Shown here one piece after another: positions 602-26,319 of a stretch of 41,728 nucleotides of DNA. The translations under genes and the position numbers were made by a program. Numbering within the stretch: the stretch's first letter is position 1; each line of letters opens with the position of its first letter. Location of the stretch: the NCBI GenBank assembly GCA_016741895.1, contig JACVCT010000005.1:1-41728 (forward strand), given 5' to 3'. Under the pieces are notes generated by a model that did no database searches, had not been told where the DNA came from, and worked only from the letters and a program-made list of their open reading frames with translations. The stretch comes from Gemmatimonadaceae bacterium (GTDB taxonomy: Bacteria > Gemmatimonadota > Gemmatimonadetes > Gemmatimonadales > Gemmatimonadaceae).

Positions 602-3600
602 ATGGGTAGGTTCCTCAGAGTCGCGACTGTGCTGGCTGCCGTCGCCTTGCTGCCGTTCCGTGCGGACGCGCAGACCCGTGACATCACGGGCAAGGTGACG
701 ATGGTCGGCACTGGTCAACCAATCGCAGATGTCACGGTCAGTGTGGTCGGCACCCAGCTGGGTGTGCGCACCAATGAGCGAGGCGAGTATCGCCTGCGGG
801 TGCCGGCGGGCGAGGTGTCCATTCTGGCCCGCCAGCTCGGGTACAAGCGCGCCACGGTGCGCCTTGGCCCCAACGAGAGCGTGGCCAACTTCGAGCTGGA
901 AAAGGACGTGCTGCAGCTGGAAGGCGTGACCGTGACGGGTCAGGCGACGACGGTGGACCGCCGCGTGGCGGCCACGGCCGTGGCGAGTGTCAATGCCGCC
1001 GAGCTCAACCGTGTGCCGGCGCGTTCGGTGGAAGGCAACCTGGCCGGCAAGGTGGCCGGTGCGCGCATCTTCGACAACAGCGGCGCGCCGGGCGGTGGTG
1101 CGCAGGTGCAGATCCGCGGTGCCACGTCGGTGCTGGGTCAGGGTGACCCGCTCTATGTGGTGGACGGCGTCATCATTTCCAACGCCGGTGTGTCGTCGGG
1201 TGCTTCGGCCATCACGCGCGCGAGCGGCACGATGGGCTCCAGTCAGGACCAGGTGGTGAATCGTCTGGCCGACCTCAACCCGAACGACATCGAGAGCATT
1301 GAGGTGCTCAAGTCGGCGGCGGCGACGGCCATCTATGGTTCGCGCGCCACGAACGGCGTGGTGGTGATCACGACCAAGAAGGGTTCGGCGGGCCAGACGC
1401 GCTGGAACATCACGCAGCGTGTGGGCACACAGCAGCTCATGCGGCCGCTGGGCCATCGCCAGTACGCCACGCTGGACGACGTGCTGCCTTTTGTTGGCGG
1501 CCCGGTGGGTGAGGCGGCGGCACGCGCGGCCTGCAACCCGAACTGCACGAACTACGATTGGGAAGGCGACCTCTACGGCCGAACCGACCCGTCGTACGAA
1601 ACGCTGCTGTCGGCCTCGGGCGGTGCGGGCAACACGCGCTACTTCGCGTCCATCAACGACCGCCAGGAGTCGGGCATCCAGATCAACACGGGCGCCCGCC
1701 GCACGGGTGGCCGCATCAATCTGGACCAGACGCTGACCAGCAAGCTGACGGCCAGCATGGGCATCGACGTGACGCGCAACTTCCTGCAGCGCGGTATCGG
1801 CAACAACAACAATGCCGGTGTGAGCCCCACGTACACCTTCGGCTATACGCCGGCCATCGTGGACCTCAACACCAAGCTGGAGAACGGCCGTTATCCGCTG
1901 ATGCCGTTTGACGGTGGTGGGTCGGGCACGGCCAACCCGTTCGAAGTGCTGCGCGCCATCGAGAGCAACGAAACGGTGTTCCGTCAGGCGGGCAACCTGC
2001 GCCTCAACTATGCGGCCGTGAGCACGGCCCGTCACAGCGTGCAGGTGTCCACGCTGTTCGGTTTCGACCGCTTCCAGCAGGAGGGCGTGCAGTACTCGCC
2101 CAACTATCTGCAGTTCGAGCCCGCCGACGGCTTCCTGGGCACGGCCGGTCAGAACAATGTGTCGAGCCTGCAGACCAACAACGGCGTGAACGCCGTGTGG
2201 ACCTGGACGCCGGCCACGAGCTGGGTGACCTCGTTTACCACCTCTGTGGGTGGCACCTACGAGCGCCAGAAGCAGGAGATCTACCGCATTCGCGGCCGTG
2301 GTCTGTTGCCCACGCGCAAGACAGCGGCCGGCGCGGCCGACATTGCCACGGAAGACACACGCACCGAGTTCCGCGACCAGTCGTACTACCTGAACGAGCA
2401 GGTGCTGCTGTTCGACGAGCGCCTGGCCCTCAACGCCGGCTTCCGCGCCGACCGTTCGAGCGCGAATGGTGACCGCGAAAAGTACTACATGTTCCCGAAG
2501 TACTCGGGCTCCTACCGCTTCGTGAAGCCGATCACGGACAAGATCGATGAGATCAAGCTGCGCGGCGCCTGGGGTCAGTCGGGCAACCGTCCGCGCTGGG
2601 CCGACCGCGATGTGTTGTATGCTGACGGCGGCATCATCGCCGGTCAGGGCTCGCTGGTGTCGGCCGGTCTGTTGGGCAACCCGAACATCCGCCCGGAAGT
2701 CATGAACGAGCTCGAGTTCGGTGCCGACGCGGCCTTCCTGAACTCACGCCTGGCCTTCGAGTTCACGCGCTACCAGCGCAAGATCACCGACCTGCTGCTC
2801 ACCTTCCCGCTGCCGCCTTCGTCGGGTCTGGGCAACCAGATCATCAACGGTGGTCAGCTGTCGGTGCTGGGCACGGAAGCGGTGCTGTCCTTCGTGCCAG
2901 TCAAGAGCAACAAGTTCGAGTGGGCCAGCCGCATCATCTACAACTCGAACATCCAGTACACGAACGACATCCCGGTTCCGGCCTTCCCGGTGCCCGGCTC
3001 GTTCGGCGCGGCCTACGGCCGCAACCGTATCACGGCCAATACGCGCTCATCGTACATCTGGTCGAATGCGCCGCTTGGCGCCAACGGTGCCGTGCGTGAC
3101 ACCATCACCTACGACTCCAACCCCATCCACACGACCACGTGGAACAACGACTTCACGATCGGTCGCTTCACGGTGTCGGCCCTGCTCGACTGGCGCGCGG
3201 GTGGCGCGGTGTCGAACATGACCAACAATCTGTGGGATGAAGGTGGCCAGTCGCGGGACTACGATGACGCGGCCCCGGCCAACATCATCCCCGCCAGCGG
3301 CAACCAGCCGGCATCGGCCGCCTGCGGCAACCGCACGCTGGGTGACTGCCGCTACTTCACGTTCAACGGCGGCGACACGCGCGTGTACATGCAGAACGGC
3401 TCGTACGTGAAGCTGCGTGAAATCACGGTGAACTACCAGGCGCCGGATTCGTGGGCGCAGAAGCTGCCGGGCGCCAAGTCCCTGCGCTTCAACCTCAGCG
3501 GCCGCAACCTGGCCCTCTGGTCGGACTACTGGGGCTACGACCCCGAGTTCAACAACTTCGGCAACACGAACTTCAACCGGTTCATCGACCTGGCGCCGTT

Positions 3601-3646
3601 CCCGCCCAGCCGCCAGTTCTTCTTCACGGTCGACGTGGGGTTCTAA
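602..3646 (+). CDS. SusC/RagA-family TonB-linked outer-membrane transporter
   Basis: Predicted 1014-residue outer-membrane transporter that would import a large ligand, opened by TonB energy, with its SusD partner as lid. I chose ATG 602 because GGAGA lies at 593-597 and a classical signal peptide follows (MGRFLRV, hydrophobic core, RADA|Q at 23/24). Next comes a carboxypeptidase-regulatory-like beta-sandwich (about 25-105; DITGKVTMVGTGQPIADVTV), then a TonB plug (about 110-240) with VQIRGATSVLGQGDPLYVVDG and IEVLKSAAATAIYGSRA, the plug signature of the family, then a barrel rich in alternating aromatic strands ending in the expected terminal aromatic residue (VDVGF). Length is normal for SusC. 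The susD gene follows after 3 bp. No polysaccharide-degrading enzyme is nearby; an M1 aminopeptidase tail is upstream, so peptide uptake is possible but unproven. Confidence 0.95.
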   Translation: MGRFLRVATVLAAVALLPFRADAQTRDITGKVTMVGTGQPIADVTVSVVGTQLGVRTNERGEYRLRVPAGEVSILARQLGYKRATVRLGPNESVANFELEKDVLQLEGVTVTGQATTVDRRVAATAVASVNAAELNRVPARSVEGNLAGKVAGARIFDNSGAPGGGAQVQIRGATSVLGQGDPLYVVDGVIISNAGVSSGASAITRASGTMGSSQDQVVNRLADLNPNDIESIEVLKSAAATAIYGSRATNGVVVITTKKGSAGQTRWNITQRVGTQQLMRPLGHRQYATLDDVLPFVGGPVGEAAARAACNPNCTNYDWEGDLYGRTDPSYETLLSASGGAGNTRYFASINDRQESGIQINTGARRTGGRINLDQTLTSKLTASMGIDVTRNFLQRGIGNNNNAGVSPTYTFGYTPAIVDLNTKLENGRYPLMPFDGGGSGTANPFEVLRAIESNETVFRQAGNLRLNYAAVSTARHSVQVSTLFGFDRFQQEGVQYSPNYLQFEPADGFLGTAGQNNVSSLQTNNGVNAVWTWTPATSWVTSFTTSVGGTYERQKQEIYRIRGRGLLPTRKTAAGAADIATEDTRTEFRDQSYYLNEQVLLFDERLALNAGFRADRSSANGDREKYYMFPKYSGSYRFVKPITDKIDEIKLRGAWGQSGNRPRWADRDVLYADGGIIAGQGSLVSAGLLGNPNIRPEVMNELEFGADAAFLNSRLAFEFTRYQRKITDLLLTFPLPPSSGLGNQIINGGQLSVLGTEAVLSFVPVKSNKFEWASRIIYNSNIQYTNDIPVPAFPVPGSFGAAYGRNRITANTRSSYIWSNAPLGANGAVRDTITYDSNPIHTTTWNNDFTIGRFTVSALLDWRAGGAVSNMTNNLWDEGGQSRDYDDAAPANIIPASGNQPASAACGNRTLGDCRYFTFNGGDTRVYMQNGSYVKLREITVNYQAPDSWAQKLPGAKSLRFNLSGRNLALWSDYWGYDPEFNNFGNTNFNRFIDLAPFPPSRQFFFTVDVGF

Positions 3647-3649
3647 GAC

Positions 3650-5110
3650 ATGACGACCAACCAACTTTCGGGCGCCTCGCGCATGAGTTCAGCTACGCTG
3701 CGCACTGTGGGTGCGCTGTCCCTCGCGTCCCTTTCGCTGGCGGCCTGCAGCAAGGACACGCTCAACGTCACCAACCCCAACACGCCCTCGGTGGCGGGCG
3801 CCAGCGGCGACCCGCAGGCCTTGCAGCTGCTGGCCACGGGACTATTGCGGCAGAATCGCAACGGGCGCGGCGGCTTCATCACCGAGACGGGCCGTTTCGG
3901 GCGTGAGGCCTACGTGTACACGCCGCAGGAAGGGCGCAACACATCGGCCTACCTCATCGGAATCTCGGGGCAGAACCGCCTCGACCCGGCGGGCTTTGCG
4001 GTGGGCAGCTGGGGTGGCCCCTACGGCAATCTGCGTGACGTGTTCAACTTCAAGAACACGGTCAACTCTTCGTCGCTCACGGCCGAGCAGAAGCGCGCGG
4101 CGCTGGGCTTTGCCAAGACCATCGAGGGCATGGAACTGCTCACGGTGATCGCCACGCGCGACACCATTGGTGCCGTGGTGCAGATCAACCAGGATGCCAC
4201 GCAGCTGGCGCCCTTCGTGAGCCGCGACTCGACGTACCGGTACATCCTGAACACGCTGGACGAAGCGGCGGCTGACCTCGCGGCTGGCGGTTCGGCGTTC
4301 CCGTTTGCCCTCAACTCGGGGTTCACGGGCTTCAACACGCCGGCCACTTTCCGTCAGTTCAACCGGGCCATGGCGGCGCGTGCTGCGGCGTACTACGCCA
4401 CGGCGGGCGGCGGTTCAGCGGCATGGACGCGGGCGCGTCAGGCGCTCGATGCCTCGTTTGTCAACATCAACGCCACCACGGCGGCGCAGTACAACGTGGG
4501 CGTGTACCATCCCTATGCCGGTTCGCCGGACGCCCCGAATCCGCTCGCGCAGGCGACGAACACGGATCTGTATGCGCACATGTCCATTGAAACCGACGCG
4601 CCGCTCAAGGCCGACGGCAGCAAGGACAACCGCTATGTGTCCAAGATCGGCAGCCGGCCCACGCGCAACGCGCCACAGGGGCTTGGTGTGCCGTCGTCGC
4701 TGGGCTTCAATATCTACCCGGCCATCACCACGCCCATCCCGATCATCCGCAACGAGGAGCTCATCCTTCTCCGCGCCGAGATCCTGCTGGCCACGGGTGA
4801 CAAGGCTGGCGCGATCGCGATGATCAACAACATCCGCGTGAACTCGGGTGGGCTGGCGCCCACGACGCTGACCGCCGCCTCGCCGGATGCGGACATCGTC
4901 ACGGAAATCCTCGTGCAGAAGCGCTACTCGCTGCTGCTCGAGGGGCACCGCTGGATCGACATGCGGCGCTACGGGCGGCTCAACCAGCTGCCGCGTGACA
5001 TCACGACGGGTGTGAACGCGCACTTCGTGGCGCGGGTGCAGCCGCTGCCGCAGGCCGAGTGTCTGCAGCGCGTCGGCCGTCAGGCGCCGCTGGCGGGCCC
5101 GGGCTGCTGA
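3650..5110 (+). CDS. SusD/RagB-family substrate-binding outer-membrane lipoprotein
   Basis: Predicted 486-residue surface lipoprotein that caps the SusC transporter. The N-terminus has a hydrophobic stretch ending LAAC-S, a lipobox with Cys33 as lipidation site. The LNVTNPNTPS segment just after it, the helical TPR-like middle and the C-terminal run EELILLRAEILLATGDKAGAIAMINNIR followed by RYSLLLEGHRWIDMRRYGRL are characteristic of SusD/RagB proteins. ATG 3650 is 3 bp after the susC stop. ATG 3683 (MSSATL...) is an alternative that would shorten the pre-lipobox region to a more usual 22 residues. Transcription should end at the hairpin at 5131. The ligand cannot be told from the sequence. Confidence 0.93.
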   Translation: MTTNQLSGASRMSSATLRTVGALSLASLSLAACSKDTLNVTNPNTPSVAGASGDPQALQLLATGLLRQNRNGRGGFITETGRFGREAYVYTPQEGRNTSAYLIGISGQNRLDPAGFAVGSWGGPYGNLRDVFNFKNTVNSSSLTAEQKRAALGFAKTIEGMELLTVIATRDTIGAVVQINQDATQLAPFVSRDSTYRYILNTLDEAAADLAAGGSAFPFALNSGFTGFNTPATFRQFNRAMAARAAAYYATAGGGSAAWTRARQALDASFVNINATTAAQYNVGVYHPYAGSPDAPNPLAQATNTDLYAHMSIETDAPLKADGSKDNRYVSKIGSRPTRNAPQGLGVPSSLGFNIYPAITTPIPIIRNEELILLRAEILLATGDKAGAIAMINNIRVNSGGLAPTTLTAASPDADIVTEILVQKRYSLLLEGHRWIDMRRYGRLNQLPRDITTGVNAHFVARVQPLPQAECLQRVGRQAPLAGPGC

Positions 5111-5130
5111 GCCTGAGTCCTTGATGGGTC

Positions 5131-5166
5131 AAACGCCCCGATCGCCGAAAGGCGGTCGGGGCGTTT
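5131..5166 (+). terminator. Strong hairpin terminator after susCD
   Basis: AAACGCCCCGATCGCC pairs with GGCGGTCGGGGCGTTT across a GAAA tetraloop: a 16-bp stem with one T-G wobble. The 3' side ends in TTTGCTTTGG. It lies 20 bp past the susD stop and is the best intrinsic terminator in the window. Confidence 0.9.
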
Positions 5167-5201
5167 GCTTTGGTGCTGTGGACTCCGAACTCACGAACCT
5201 G

Positions 5202-5253
5202 AACTCAAAGCTCAGAGCTCACCGAAAGTCCGGTCAGCTCTGAGCTTTGAGTT
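5202..5253. repeat. 18-bp perfect inverted repeat (AACTCAAAGC hairpin) between susD and the convergent plug gene
   Basis: The 18-nt arms at 5202-5219 and 5236-5253 (AACTCAAAGCTCAGAGCT and its complement) are perfectly complementary. After one C-C mismatch the stem continues as ACCG/CGGT with loop AAAGTC. It sits past the susCD terminator, so it is not needed to end that transcript. It is built from the same AACTC/GAGTT words as the palindromes at 5277 and 24893, suggesting one repeat family. Confidence 0.8.
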
Positions 5254-5276
5254 GACGTATTGAGTTGGGAGTGGCA

Positions 5277-5340
5277 CCAACTCAAAACTCGAAACCCGAA
5301 CACAGAACCCGAAACTGATCAGTTCCGGGTCTTGAGTTGG
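5277..5340. repeat. Palindromic intergenic repeat, copy A (AACTGATCAGTT core)
   Basis: The outer 9-bp arms CCAACTCAA/TTGAGTTGG (5277-5285, 5332-5340) enclose an inner palindrome at 5307-5330: ACCCG, one mismatch, AACTGATCAGTT, CGGGT. The 20 nt at 5311-5330 recur exactly at 24924-24943, and the flanks are again made of ACTCGAAACCC-like words. Further GAGTT words run to about 5360, next to the stop codon of the convergent gene at 5370. Likely a REP/BIME-like element that may act as a two-way terminator or mRNA end. Confidence 0.8.
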
Positions 5341-5369
5341 AGTTCCGAGTTGTGGGTTCGATGCTTCGC

Positions 5370-22811: not shown

Positions 22812-24005
22812 TCAGGCGCGCTGGCGCAAGCCAGTGCAGCGGACAACCGGGACCCGCAGGGCGAGCCCCACCAGCAGTTCGTACGGAGACACGCCACCAC
22901 GGGCCGCCACCCACTCGGTGCTGAGCAGGTCGTGGCCGTCGGCGCCCAGCAACGTGGCCACGTCGCCGACTGCACAGGGCCGGTCGGTGACGTCCACCAT
23001 GGTCATGTCCATGGTGACGCGCCCCACCACCGGGCAGCGCGTTCCGTGGATAAGTACCACCCCGGCGTTGGAAAGATGCCGGCGATATCCATCGGCGTAT
23101 CCGGCGGCCAGCGTGGCTATGGTTCGCCGCGAGGGCGCCGTCCATGTAGCCCCGTAAGATACCGACTCGCCAGCCTCGACGTGACGGAGATCGACAATCC
23201 GGGCGCGCAGATGCGGGACCTGCCGGAGCCCCAGCTCGTCGGCGAACATGCCGGCGTAGAGGGCGATGCCCGGCCTGGCGAGCTGGCCGGGGGAGCCCGT
23301 GGTCCGGCTCACGATGCCGCCGCTGTTGTCGCGGTGCGTGAGGCAGCCGGCGGGCAGCACGTCCATGAGGGCGGCCAGGGCCTCGTCAAAGCGGACGTCC
23401 TGCTGCTCGCGTGAGACCAAGGACTCGTCGGCCGAATGGAAATGGGTGAAGACCCCTTCGGGCGGATGGGCCGCGAGGATGCGGCGCAGCGGGGTAACCC
23501 CGTCCCAGCGCACACCGGCGCGGGCCATGCCGGTGTCGATGGCCAGGTGCCAGGGGCGGAGCGCGCCGGCGGGGCTGAGCGCGGACCAAGCGGCGATGTC
23601 GGCTTCGCGGTGCAAGGTTGGGCGCAAATCCAGCGCCGCGGCGCGCGCGAGCTCCTCGGCGCGGAGCGGCGTGCTGCAGACGAGCCGCGCCGTGCAGCCG
23701 GCGGCGCGCAGTTCCTCGGCCTCATCGAGCGAGGCAATGCCGGCGCCCCAGGGGCGGTCTGCCGCGCTGACATGGGCCTGGTCCTGGTTCTGGCCCTCGT
23801 CCTGATCAGCAAAGGGAAGCCCGAGAGCGCGTGCGCTGTCCACGGCCCCCAGGCCGTAGGCATTGGCCTTGATCATGACCAGCAGCGGCACGCCCGCCCG
23901 TGCCCGCAGGACACGCGCATTGTGACGCAGCGCGTCGTCGTCCACTTCGAGCCAGGCGCGGTCGAGGTCGGTGGAACGGGCCGGGTATATTGGCGGAGCG
24001 GACAT
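22812..24005 (-). CDS. alr: Alanine racemase
   Basis: 397 residues. PLP-dependent racemase making D-alanine for peptidoglycan. The PLP lysine is Lys46 in LLVMIKANAYGLGA, and the second catalytic base is Tyr284 in SVSYGATW. HLAIDTGMARAGVRW, FTHFHSADE and AGYADGYRR also match. A short Gln/Asp-rich insert, FADQDEGQNQDQAHVSAADR, lies in the N-terminal barrel where other racemases go straight to the GIASLDEAEELR strand. ATG 24005 (AGGA 9 nt upstream) was chosen; ATG 24041 with GGAGA at 5 nt is a real alternative and adds 12 residues. It is divergent from mazG and heads the long operon that runs to fbp. Confidence 0.95.
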   Translation of the reverse strand: MSAPPIYPARSTDLDRAWLEVDDDALRHNARVLRARAGVPLLVMIKANAYGLGAVDSARALGLPFADQDEGQNQDQAHVSAADRPWGAGIASLDEAEELRAAGCTARLVCSTPLRAEELARAAALDLRPTLHREADIAAWSALSPAGALRPWHLAIDTGMARAGVRWDGVTPLRRILAAHPPEGVFTHFHSADESLVSREQQDVRFDEALAALMDVLPAGCLTHRDNSGGIVSRTTGSPGQLARPGIALYAGMFADELGLRQVPHLRARIVDLRHVEAGESVSYGATWTAPSRRTIATLAAGYADGYRRHLSNAGVVLIHGTRCPVVGRVTMDMTMVDVTDRPCAVGDVATLLGADGHDLLSTEWVAARGGVSPYELLVGLALRVPVVRCTGLRQRA

Positions 24006-24062
24006 CCCGGCAATCCTAAGGGGTCCGCGCGCAGTTTTCATCGGTTCTCCGTCTGCCCAGCC

Positions 24063-24893
24063 ATGCCCAGCACACCGGAAACACCCGGCGCCTCCCTGCC
24101 CGCGGGTTCAAGTCCCGCCGGCGCCCCTGCCCCCCGCTCGCTCGACGACGCGCTGGCCCTCATGAAGGACCTGCGCGCGCGCTGCGACTGGGACCGGGTG
24201 CAGACGCATCAGTCGCTGCGTCCCTATCTCATCGAGGAGGCGCACGAGGTGGACGACGCCATTGCCGGCGGCGACGATGCCACGCTGCGCGACGAGCTGG
24301 GCGACCTCTTCCTGCAGGTGCTGTTTCACTCGGTGGTGGCGGAAGAGCGCGGCGCCTTCAGCATGCAGGATGTGGCGGGGGCGCTGGTGGCCAAGATGCA
24401 CGCGCGGCATCCGCACCTCTACGGCGACGGCATCAAGCGGCCGTGGGAAAGCATGAAGGCGGCCAAGGCCACGCGCTCCACACTGGAGCAAGGACTGCCG
24501 GCGGGTCTGCCCTCGCTGCACCGGGCGCACCGGCTGCAGGACCGCGCGGCGGGCGTGGGCTTCGACTGGAACAACGCACTGGGCCCGCTGGCCAAGGTGC
24601 GCGAAGAGGTCGAGGAAGTCGCGCGGCTCATTGATCCCGCCACCGGCGCCGTGTCGGACGGCGATGCGCTCGAGGCCGAGCTGGGCGACCTGCTGTTTGC
24701 GGTGGTGAACCTCTGCCGCAAGACGGGCGTGCACGGGGCGCTGGCGCTGGACCGGACGAACGCGAAGTTCGTGCGACGCTACGCGGCGATGGAGCGACTG
24801 GCGAATGCCGACGGGAAGACGCTGACGGCGTTGTCGCTGGAGGAGCAGGATGAGTACTGGGATGCGGTGAAGCGGGAGGAGCATTCCGAATGA
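24063..24893 (+). CDS. mazG: Nucleoside triphosphate pyrophosphohydrolase
   Basis: 276 residues. Hydrolyses NTPs to NMP and pyrophosphate, clearing abnormal nucleotides and lowering (p)ppGpp-related stress signals in E. coli. Two tandem MazG domains are present: the first with LRARCDWDRVQTHQSLRPYLIEEAHEV and DELGDLFLQVLFH, the second with KVREEVEEVARLI and ELGDLLFAVVNLCRK. The linker LYGDGIKRPWESMK also matches. A Pro/Ala/Gly-rich stretch precedes the first domain (residues 1-25). ATG 24063; Shine-Dalgarno weak. The gene sits alone between a divergent alr and a convergent asnS; its stop codon forms the edge of the palindromic repeat. Confidence 0.95.
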   Translation: MPSTPETPGASLPAGSSPAGAPAPRSLDDALALMKDLRARCDWDRVQTHQSLRPYLIEEAHEVDDAIAGGDDATLRDELGDLFLQVLFHSVVAEERGAFSMQDVAGALVAKMHARHPHLYGDGIKRPWESMKAAKATRSTLEQGLPAGLPSLHRAHRLQDRAAGVGFDWNNALGPLAKVREEVEEVARLIDPATGAVSDGDALEAELGDLLFAVVNLCRKTGVHGALALDRTNAKFVRRYAAMERLANADGKTLTALSLEEQDEYWDAVKREEHSE

Positions 24894-24970
24894 CTTACAA
24901 CTCGAAACCCTCACTCAAGACTCGAAACTGATCAGTTCCGGGTTGTGAGTAAGGGTTTCGGGTTGTGAGT
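24893..24970. repeat. Palindromic intergenic repeat, copy B, between mazG and asnS
   Basis: The arms at 24893-24917 and 24946-24970 pair over 25 bp with one mismatch and two wobbles (ACTTACAACTCGAAACCC... against GGGTTTCGGGTTGTGAGT). The middle carries AACTGATCAGTT (24926-24937). The 20 nt at 24924-24943 are identical to copy A (5311-5330). The left arm begins on the last base of the mazG stop codon, and the asnS stop is 26 bp past the right arm. It would fold into a very stable RNA hairpin in either direction, so a bidirectional terminator is a good guess. Confidence 0.85.
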
Positions 24971-24996
24971 TGCGGCCTGCTGACTGCTTCCCCGCC

Positions 24997-26319
24997 TTAC
25001 GGCGCCAGCCTTCCCATCATCCGCGGGAACGGAATGCACTCGCGGATGTGCTCGATGCCGCAGATCCAGGCAATGGTGCGCTCGAGGCCGAGCCCGAAGC
25101 CCGAGTGCGTGAAGGTGCCGTACTTGCGCAGGTCGAGGTACCAGCCGTAGGCCTCCACCGGCAGGCCCTCGTGCACGAGGCGCGCGAGGATCTTGTCGTA
25201 GTCGTCCTCACGCTGCGAGCCGCCGATGATTTCGCCGCGGCCCTCGGGCGCCAGCAGGTCGGCGCAGCGCACGGTGCGCGGATCGGCCGGGTTCTCCTTC
25301 ATGTAGAACGCCTTGGCTTCCTTCGGATAATTCACCACGAAGACGGGCCGCTGGTACTCGTCCACGATCATGGCCTCGTCGGGCGCGCCCAGATCGTCAC
25401 CCCACACGATGTCGCTGCCCTTGGACTGCGCGAGCTTGACCGCCTCGCCGTAGTCGAGCCGCACGAAGGGCTGCGACACACAATCGAGCTTGCTCGTATC
25501 GCGCTCGAGCACCTTGAGTTCTTCCTGACGACGTTCGAGCACGCGCTCCACCAGATAGCGCACAAACGCTTCCTGGAGATCCATGTTGTCGTCCTGATCG
25601 TACCAGGCCATCTCCGGTTCGATCATCCAGAACTCGGTGAGATGACGGCGCGTCTTGCTCTTCTCGGCGCGGAAGGTGGGGCCGAAGGTGTAGATGCGAC
25701 CCAGCGCCGCCGCGAGCGCCTCGCCATAGAGCTGGCCGGTCTGCGCGAGGTAGGCCGTGCCTTCCTCGAAGTACTCGGTGCTGAAGAGTCCCGCGCGCTC
25801 ACCGATGGCGGCGGTGAGAATGGGCGTGTCGCAGCGCACGAAGTCGCGCGCATAGAAAAAGTCATGCACGGCCTGCTCGAGTTCATGGCGCACGCGCATG
25901 ATGGCCACCTGGCGCGGGCTGCGCAGCCAGAACGTGCGATTGTCGAGCAGGAAGTCGATGCCGTGCTCCTTGGGCTGGATGGGATAGTCCAGCGGACTCG
26001 AGCCGACAATCGACAGCGAGCTGACACCCATTTCGTAACCGCCCGGCGCCCGGGCATCGGCGCGCACGCTGCCCGTGACGGCCACGCTGCACTCCTGCGT
26101 CAGCTGCCCGAAGGCCTCCCAGTCCGCCTCACTGACCTCGGCCTTCACCACCACAGCCTGCATGATGCCCGTGCCATCACGCAGCACGGCAAAACCCAGC
26201 TTGCCCTTGCTGCGCAGGTGGGTGACCCAGGCGCGCACGGTCACGGTGGCGCCATCATGGTGCTTGAGATCGGCAATACGGACGGTGGTCTGATTCACGG
26301 GACCGACGGGCTGAGACAC
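24997..26319 (-). CDS. asnS: Asparaginyl-tRNA synthetase
   Basis: 440 residues. Class II enzyme that charges tRNA-Asn. An N-terminal OB-fold anticodon-binding domain (VRIADLKHHDGATVTVRAWVTH) precedes the catalytic core. Motif 2 is FRAEKSKTRRHLTEFWMIEPE-like, around residue 223, and motif 3 is GFGLGLERT, around 410. The asparaginyl-specific reading over the aspartyl enzyme rests on RAEKSKTRRHLTEFWM and on the C-terminal IPFPRMMGRLAP. The start is GTG 26319 without a clear Shine-Dalgarno sequence; no better start lies nearby. A GGCAG..CCCGA/TCGGG..CTGCC imperfect hairpin lies in the roughly 80-bp gap to the upstream hybrid kinase. No T-box features were found. Confidence 0.96.
   Translation of the reverse strand: MSQPVGPVNQTTVRIADLKHHDGATVTVRAWVTHLRSKGKLGFAVLRDGTGIMQAVVVKAEVSEADWEAFGQLTQECSVAVTGSVRADARAPGGYEMGVSSLSIVGSSPLDYPIQPKEHGIDFLLDNRTFWLRSPRQVAIMRVRHELEQAVHDFFYARDFVRCDTPILTAAIGERAGLFSTEYFEEGTAYLAQTGQLYGEALAAALGRIYTFGPTFRAEKSKTRRHLTEFWMIEPEMAWYDQDDNMDLQEAFVRYLVERVLERRQEELKVLERDTSKLDCVSQPFVRLDYGEAVKLAQSKGSDIVWGDDLGAPDEAMIVDEYQRPVFVVNYPKEAKAFYMKENPADPRTVRCADLLAPEGRGEIIGGSQREDDYDKILARLVHEGLPVEAYGWYLDLRKYGTFTHSGFGLGLERTIAWICGIEHIRECIPFPRMMGRLAP

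Follow-up and report, generated by a model that had tools for sequence, protein, structure and literature searches.

REP-like repeats and heptamer repeats have been known for decades, and we know of no agreed reason for where they are placed or for the number seven. For REPs, a bias toward convergent and tandem gene pairs next to stop codons has been described (PMC3733652). Repeats with a 7-base unit are known as tandem repeats, namely the cyanobacterial STRRs and TAACTGA of the Beggiatoaceae (PMC4679880) as well as GGGAATC of Xanthomonas and Nostoc (PMC4692102), and in many bacteria no class of longer simple repeats is commoner than the heptamers (PMC4679880, PMC4692102). Insertion sequences that use REPs as targets have also been described, among them ISRm22 of the IS4 family (PMC1525189).

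The hairpin family described here, called alpha, was found in a window of 41,728 nucleotides (the whole stretch of DNA that was analysed, contig 12 of the assembly) from a Gemmatimonadaceae bacterium, whose genome (G000) is a fragmented, 91% complete MAG of 4.24 Mb and of Gemmatimonas type. The unit is an 80-bp hairpin in which seven-base words of degenerate spelling (AACYCRR), about five in number, lead to a fixed palindromic core, behind which they return reversed. Like the GTAG- and CGTC-tagged REPs and BIMEs it is a high-copy extragenic palindrome with convergent and tandem bias that lies near stop codons, forms composites and serves as an IS target, but it is 80 bp long instead of 20-40, carries no GTAG or CGTC end and has no linked RAYT (PMC3733652, PMC2817692); a further difference lies in the arms of 7-base words, whose vocabulary varies between species at one and the same site. 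With the heptamer repeats alpha shares the intergenic position, the 7-base period, degenerate units and lineage-specific words (PMC4679880, PMC4692102), whereas these have been described as direct repeats, in the case of TAACTGA mostly upstream of starts, and alpha forms long fixed-core palindromes behind stops. A literature search, with subscription journals mostly outside its scope, returned no paper on such repeats in Gemmatimonas.

Word structure and placement of the alpha family

Two copies of alpha lie in the window (Table 1). As the first-pass annotation had reported, they have 20 identical bases in common, and this 20-mer, GAAACTGATCAGTTCCGGGT, occurs with up to three mismatches at just these two places of the window, each on both strands, and not at all in shuffled sequences. 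The copies align over 79-80 bp with 80% identity. The hairpin between mazG and asnS is real, since the RNA of copy B folds with -52.8 kcal/mol (none of 200 shuffles was as good) and the DNA with a z-score of -6.0. Its stem does begin on the mazG stop codon, with the GA of TGA, but the 25-bp arms originally assigned to it turned out to be about 35 pairs broken by single-base interruptions. The gene names hold by Pfam, which returned MazG, class-II tRNA synthetase, SusD and TonB Plug domains. Rfam gave no match to a known RNA family at gathering score in the whole window.

Table 1. Positions of the alpha copies, the accompanying hairpins and the neighbouring genes in the window.
Feature	Position	Strand	Basis
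Copy B of alpha, an 80-bp palindrome of heptads, mazG-asnS gap	24892..24971		R1 covariance-model match, 87 bits (copy B itself was used to build the model); RNA fold z -8.2; alignment
Arms of copy B	left 24892-24925, right 24938-24971		
Palindromic core AACTGATCAGTT of copy B	24926..24937		45 genome places, reversed control 0
20-mer identical to 5311-5330	24924..24943	+	exact match
Copy A of alpha, behind susD	5279..5358		alignment, R1 match; orthologue at the same place in G001
Core of copy A	5313..5324		exact core match
Beta, the second type of hairpin (AACTCAAAGCTCAGAGCTCACCG / CGGTCAGCTCTGAGCTTTGAGTT)	5197..5258		inverted repeat; usual fixed distance from alpha
Ordinary GC hairpin (CAAACGCCCCGATCGCC-GAAA-GGCGGTCGGGGCGTTTG) directly after susD, ahead of beta and alpha	5130..5167	+	read from sequence
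mazG, upstream neighbour of copy B, stop codon overlapping the stem	23436..24893	+	Pfam MazG, E 3.7e-37
asnS, converging neighbour of copy B	24997..26319	-	Pfam tRNA-synt_2, E 5.7e-68

The first-pass annotation had suggested a genome-wide family from these two copies, and the 12-bp core is indeed dispersed through G000, with no place inside a gene. Thirty-seven whole copies align without gaps and consist of invariant AAC/CNC words alternating with C/T positions in one arm and A/G positions in the other. The arm reads AACYCAR-NACYCGR-AACYYG-AACYCAR-AACYCGR-core, in which one unit has six bases and the other four have seven. Identity at lag 7 is 0.54 in the arms compared with 0.30 after shuffling, and the autocorrelation peaks at 7, 13 and 20, the latter two being echoes of the 6-base middle unit; a generic lag-7 scan at 0.60 was too strict and returned 8 places in the G000 stretches. 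The core is nearly invariant, a conservation biased upwards by picking the copies by their core, and the arms vary mostly by transitions. The consensus contains no GTAG or CGTC tag, the aligned copies mostly starting with AAC or GAC and ending with GTT or GTC. Nor do the units form head-to-tail, near-identical direct repeats as in STRRs, as they are degenerate, one has 6 bases and the arms are inverted around the core. The second hairpin type, beta, occurs at about 20 places in the genome, mostly about 71 bp from an alpha core and on either side of it, and alpha is also found in tandem pairs. The earlier comparison with BIMEs thus stands as far as these regularly spaced mosaics of different palindromes and the REP-like layout are concerned, and it fails for a REP/RAYT (REPIN) system.

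The copies are strongly biased toward gene ends instead of being scattered at random. With genes called by a simple codon-usage finder trained on the window, the 115 whole copies of eight genomes are distributed over 56 convergent junctions, 48 tandem ones (behind one gene of a pair with the same direction), 7 divergent ones and 4 contig edges, and none is intragenic. In G000 the junctions with alpha are convergent, tandem and divergent in 19, 15 and 1 cases, compared with 8, 53 and 24 for those without (Fisher test, 4e-7 for convergent enrichment and 0.001 for divergent depletion). The sister species G001 gives the same picture (3e-5), and in the smaller samples of G028 and G022 convergent enrichment reaches 0.04 and 0.03, with non-significant divergent depletion. 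In G000 the centre of the core lies at a median of 65 bp from the stop codon, which puts the onset of the arm about 25 bp behind the stop.

Orthologous gene ends and the evolution of the copies

At the mazG|asnS junction alpha is present in G000 and, with other arms, in G022; G001, the sister of G000, has beta there and G028 has AACTGAN words. ACTCCCT words are found there in G011, G015 and G024, GAGTGGT words in G014, G020, G023 and G026, and a CCCCCGG hairpin with heptads in G005 and G016; the remaining species have little or nothing. Lag 7 was best in all 12 palindromes of different words tested at this junction. In the asnS tree G014 and G015 as well as G000 and G001 are sisters with high support, despite their differing palindrome types. 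Either an exchange in place or the import of a segment from another species is needed. The ACTCCCT/AGTAGGG palindromes (L138, L148 and L150 of G011, G015 and G024) are purine-rich on one strand per arm, and they could also adopt other non-B structures.

Other-word heptad palindromes were read at three junctions, the other two being the ends of prfC and of an E1-type dehydrogenase gene, both named by reading of the sequences. Alpha-like units occupy the prfC end in nine species and the E1-type end in six; elsewhere these ends carry heptad palindromes of other words or unrelated ordinary strong hairpins, among which lag 7 does not consistently come out best. When the three sites are pooled, 56 of 80 gene ends fold with a z-score below -3, compared with none of 30 control windows. 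The exception is mazG|asnS, where species without a heptad palindrome usually have no hairpin; about half of the species are hairpin-free at this site, so that the hairpin is dispensable there. Judging from these comparisons, place and shape last, and the spelling is rewritten between related species. At the prfC end of G018 and G009 (L229, L231 and L042, L051) alpha is enclosed by another inverted repeat, made up of the outer flanks GCGGTTCAACC ... GGTTGAACCGC, and in G016 and G005 (L230, L234) the same end holds a long structured intergenic stretch of CGGCAGACGGCAGACGACAGG words, with a 7-base period and another vocabulary.

For most checkable G000 copies the corresponding place in G001 also holds an alpha (29 spanning alignments, 23 of them clean), in a sample biased by the fact that the G001 stretches were fetched around alpha matches. 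The arms have diverged by 8.7%, with 87 transitions and 49 transversions. Double-sided changes exceed independence (20 vs. 9.9), and changes from one Watson-Crick pair to another are weakly above expectation (5 vs. 2.4, p 0.08). Clustered replacement fits this pattern better than step-by-step compensation. Covariation beyond column composition is weak, slightly above shuffles. At one site (L087/L188) the outer arms are the same in both species, but they enclose an alpha core in G000 and in G001 a beta-like one. In G022, copies from three different sites are 0.85-0.90 identical to each other and 0.49-0.64 identical to the same-site copies of the other compared genomes; the mean identity (without gaps) is 0.80 within this genome and 0.53-0.58 to any other. 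This is the mark of concerted evolution, and the identities indicate homogenisation in at least one species, which is less clear in the others.

Taxonomic spread, transposases and an IS4-family element

Alpha is abundant in the genus Gemmatimonas only. Among the matches listed for model R1 (up to 76 scored, both strands) it is present in 23 of 30 genus members; seven other genera of the family gave no match, and two genomes of another family gave weak ones. Matches to the degenerate core throughout GTDB are nearly all from Gemmatimonadaceae, and the few others are chance-like.

A selfish or neutral non-autonomous element of the MITE or REPIN type, copied by some transposase and confined to gene ends by purging elsewhere, would be expected to look dispersed, many-copied and composite, and its near absence between diverging genes would be explained as well. 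The RAYT domain for which the first-pass annotation had proposed a search (Y1 transposase, Y1_Tnp, PF01797) is found in 8 of the 30 genus members, and all eight carry alpha. We nevertheless regard such an element as unlikely. The domain is absent from the richest carriers, that is G000 (91% complete), G001, G004, G022 and G028, and no convincing alpha lies within about 2 kb of any of the eight Y1_Tnp loci (best E 0.81), one of which has its own unrelated palindrome. Thus, RAYT/REPIN mobilisation finds no support in the genome of the window, across the genus or at the Y1 flanks, a situation that resembles the CGTC REPs, which likewise lack a linked transposase. Furthermore, alpha has no GTAG end, its copies are retained at orthologous positions, and relatives have different types at one and the same site. 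The unrelated palindrome, TTCAAGGGGTCAGAGTCGTTGAA, is perfect and lies near the Y1 transposase gene of G023 (L160:2668-2718 and 3574-3722); possibly this is a genuine RAYT-REP pair in another species.

A different mobile element makes use of the repeat. In G000 an IS with 13-bp inverted repeats (CAGGCGTGTCCGG) has ten ends (L095-L104), and all ten lie directly next to ACYCGRAACT or the complementary AGTTYCGRGT, in one case with a mismatch; this target is part of the alpha core together with its flank. As the interior of the IS is missing from the G000 assembly, an intact copy was taken from the sister G001, where it is 1314 bp long (L176:1501-2814, G001:C11:25103-26416), encodes an IS4-family transposase and is flanked by a 10-bp direct repeat, ACTCAAGACT, which is the target duplication. 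In other species CAGGCGTGTCCGG has many matches that lack IS ends and are due to chance. ISRm22 also belongs to the IS4 family and has every genomic copy in a palindromic repeat, but its host repeat is another one, the target here being ACYCGRAACT (PMC1525189). The first-pass annotation had missed this landing in the repeat and the homogenisation of copies within one species, as well as the arms of 7-base words around a fixed palindromic core and the differing word sets at orthologous gene ends of sister species.

Possible role and mode of spread

Alpha is most likely a genus-level, RAYT-less family of REP-like gene-end hairpins that is homogenised by recombination. It would supply a strong 3'-end hairpin common to two converging genes, and the effect may be a bidirectional attenuation of read-through and/or a 3' protection of the transcripts, with termination, an exonuclease barrier or topology as the conceivable molecular step. 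At the same gene ends of alpha-free species, an unrelated hairpin would stand in its place. We assume a job at transcript 3' ends because of the placement, the near absence between diverging genes and the fact that a hairpin is kept at two of the three gene ends whatever its sequence. Spread and rewriting of the copies would have come about mainly through recombination or gene conversion, acting between short stretches of similar sequence, and through slippage of heptads, rather than by transposing every copy; the missing RAYT, the core swaps and the homogenisation argue for recombination instead of a dedicated transposase. The alpha core doubles as landing site of the IS4-family element. We consider this explanation as a whole reasonably probable.

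A role at the RNA level, by termination or 3' protection, is plausible. A consensus scan for intrinsic terminators (GC hairpin and T-run) found no site at copy B, which has no U-tract, and none at copy A; the GC hairpin after susD was not flagged either. Copy A already lies behind this ordinary hairpin, which counts against a simple terminator. A count of terminators with and without alpha was discarded because the T-run rule can respond to GGGTTTT words within alpha itself. Alpha resembles bidirectional intrinsic terminators in that one hairpin is common to two converging genes, but it has no U-tract, its stem is much longer and it belongs to a repeated family. Sense-strand G-U pairs are not preferred over A-C in tandem copies (162 vs. 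146, p 0.39), which gives no signal of selection on the transcript fold.

This lack of RNA-sense bias in the mismatches would also suit a double-stranded DNA site, in which a dimeric protein related to nucleoid or topology recognises AACTGATCAGTT and the arms serve as supercoil-relieving spacers between converging genes. The nearly invariant core between arms that vary mostly by transitions and the convergent bias are in line with such a site. However, part of the core conservation stems from the core-based choice of copies, other word sets occupy the same sites without the AACTGATCAGTT core and no protein has been linked to it, and we consider this reading quite improbable. Equally improbable is a functionless by-product of replication, made by heptad slippage and hairpin template switching wherever the sequence is free, which would explain how sister species come to share the 7-base period of a site while differing in its words, and agrees with the prevalence of heptamers in many bacteria (PMC4679880, PMC4692102), but neither the strong 3'-end bias away from diverging gaps nor the unrelated hairpins at the same ends of heptad-free species.

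Going beyond the preferred explanation of RAYT-less gene-end hairpins spread by recombination, it is a tentative possibility, in our view rather doubtful, that the gene-end hairpins of Gemmatimonas are rewritten in place by a process that draws on a 7-base vocabulary specific to the genome and needs no dedicated transposase, so that position, fold and period would be kept and the sequence replaced and then homogenised. If true, short regulatory hairpins would here undergo concerted evolution in a way that is undescribed for REPs and STRRs in the literature searched. A gene end at which close relatives carry alpha, beta, other heptads or an ordinary hairpin amounts to a natural experiment, in which position and fold, both kept, can be told apart from the sequence, which is replaced. 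Because sister species have swapped types, the origin and the role of the heptads can be tested directly.
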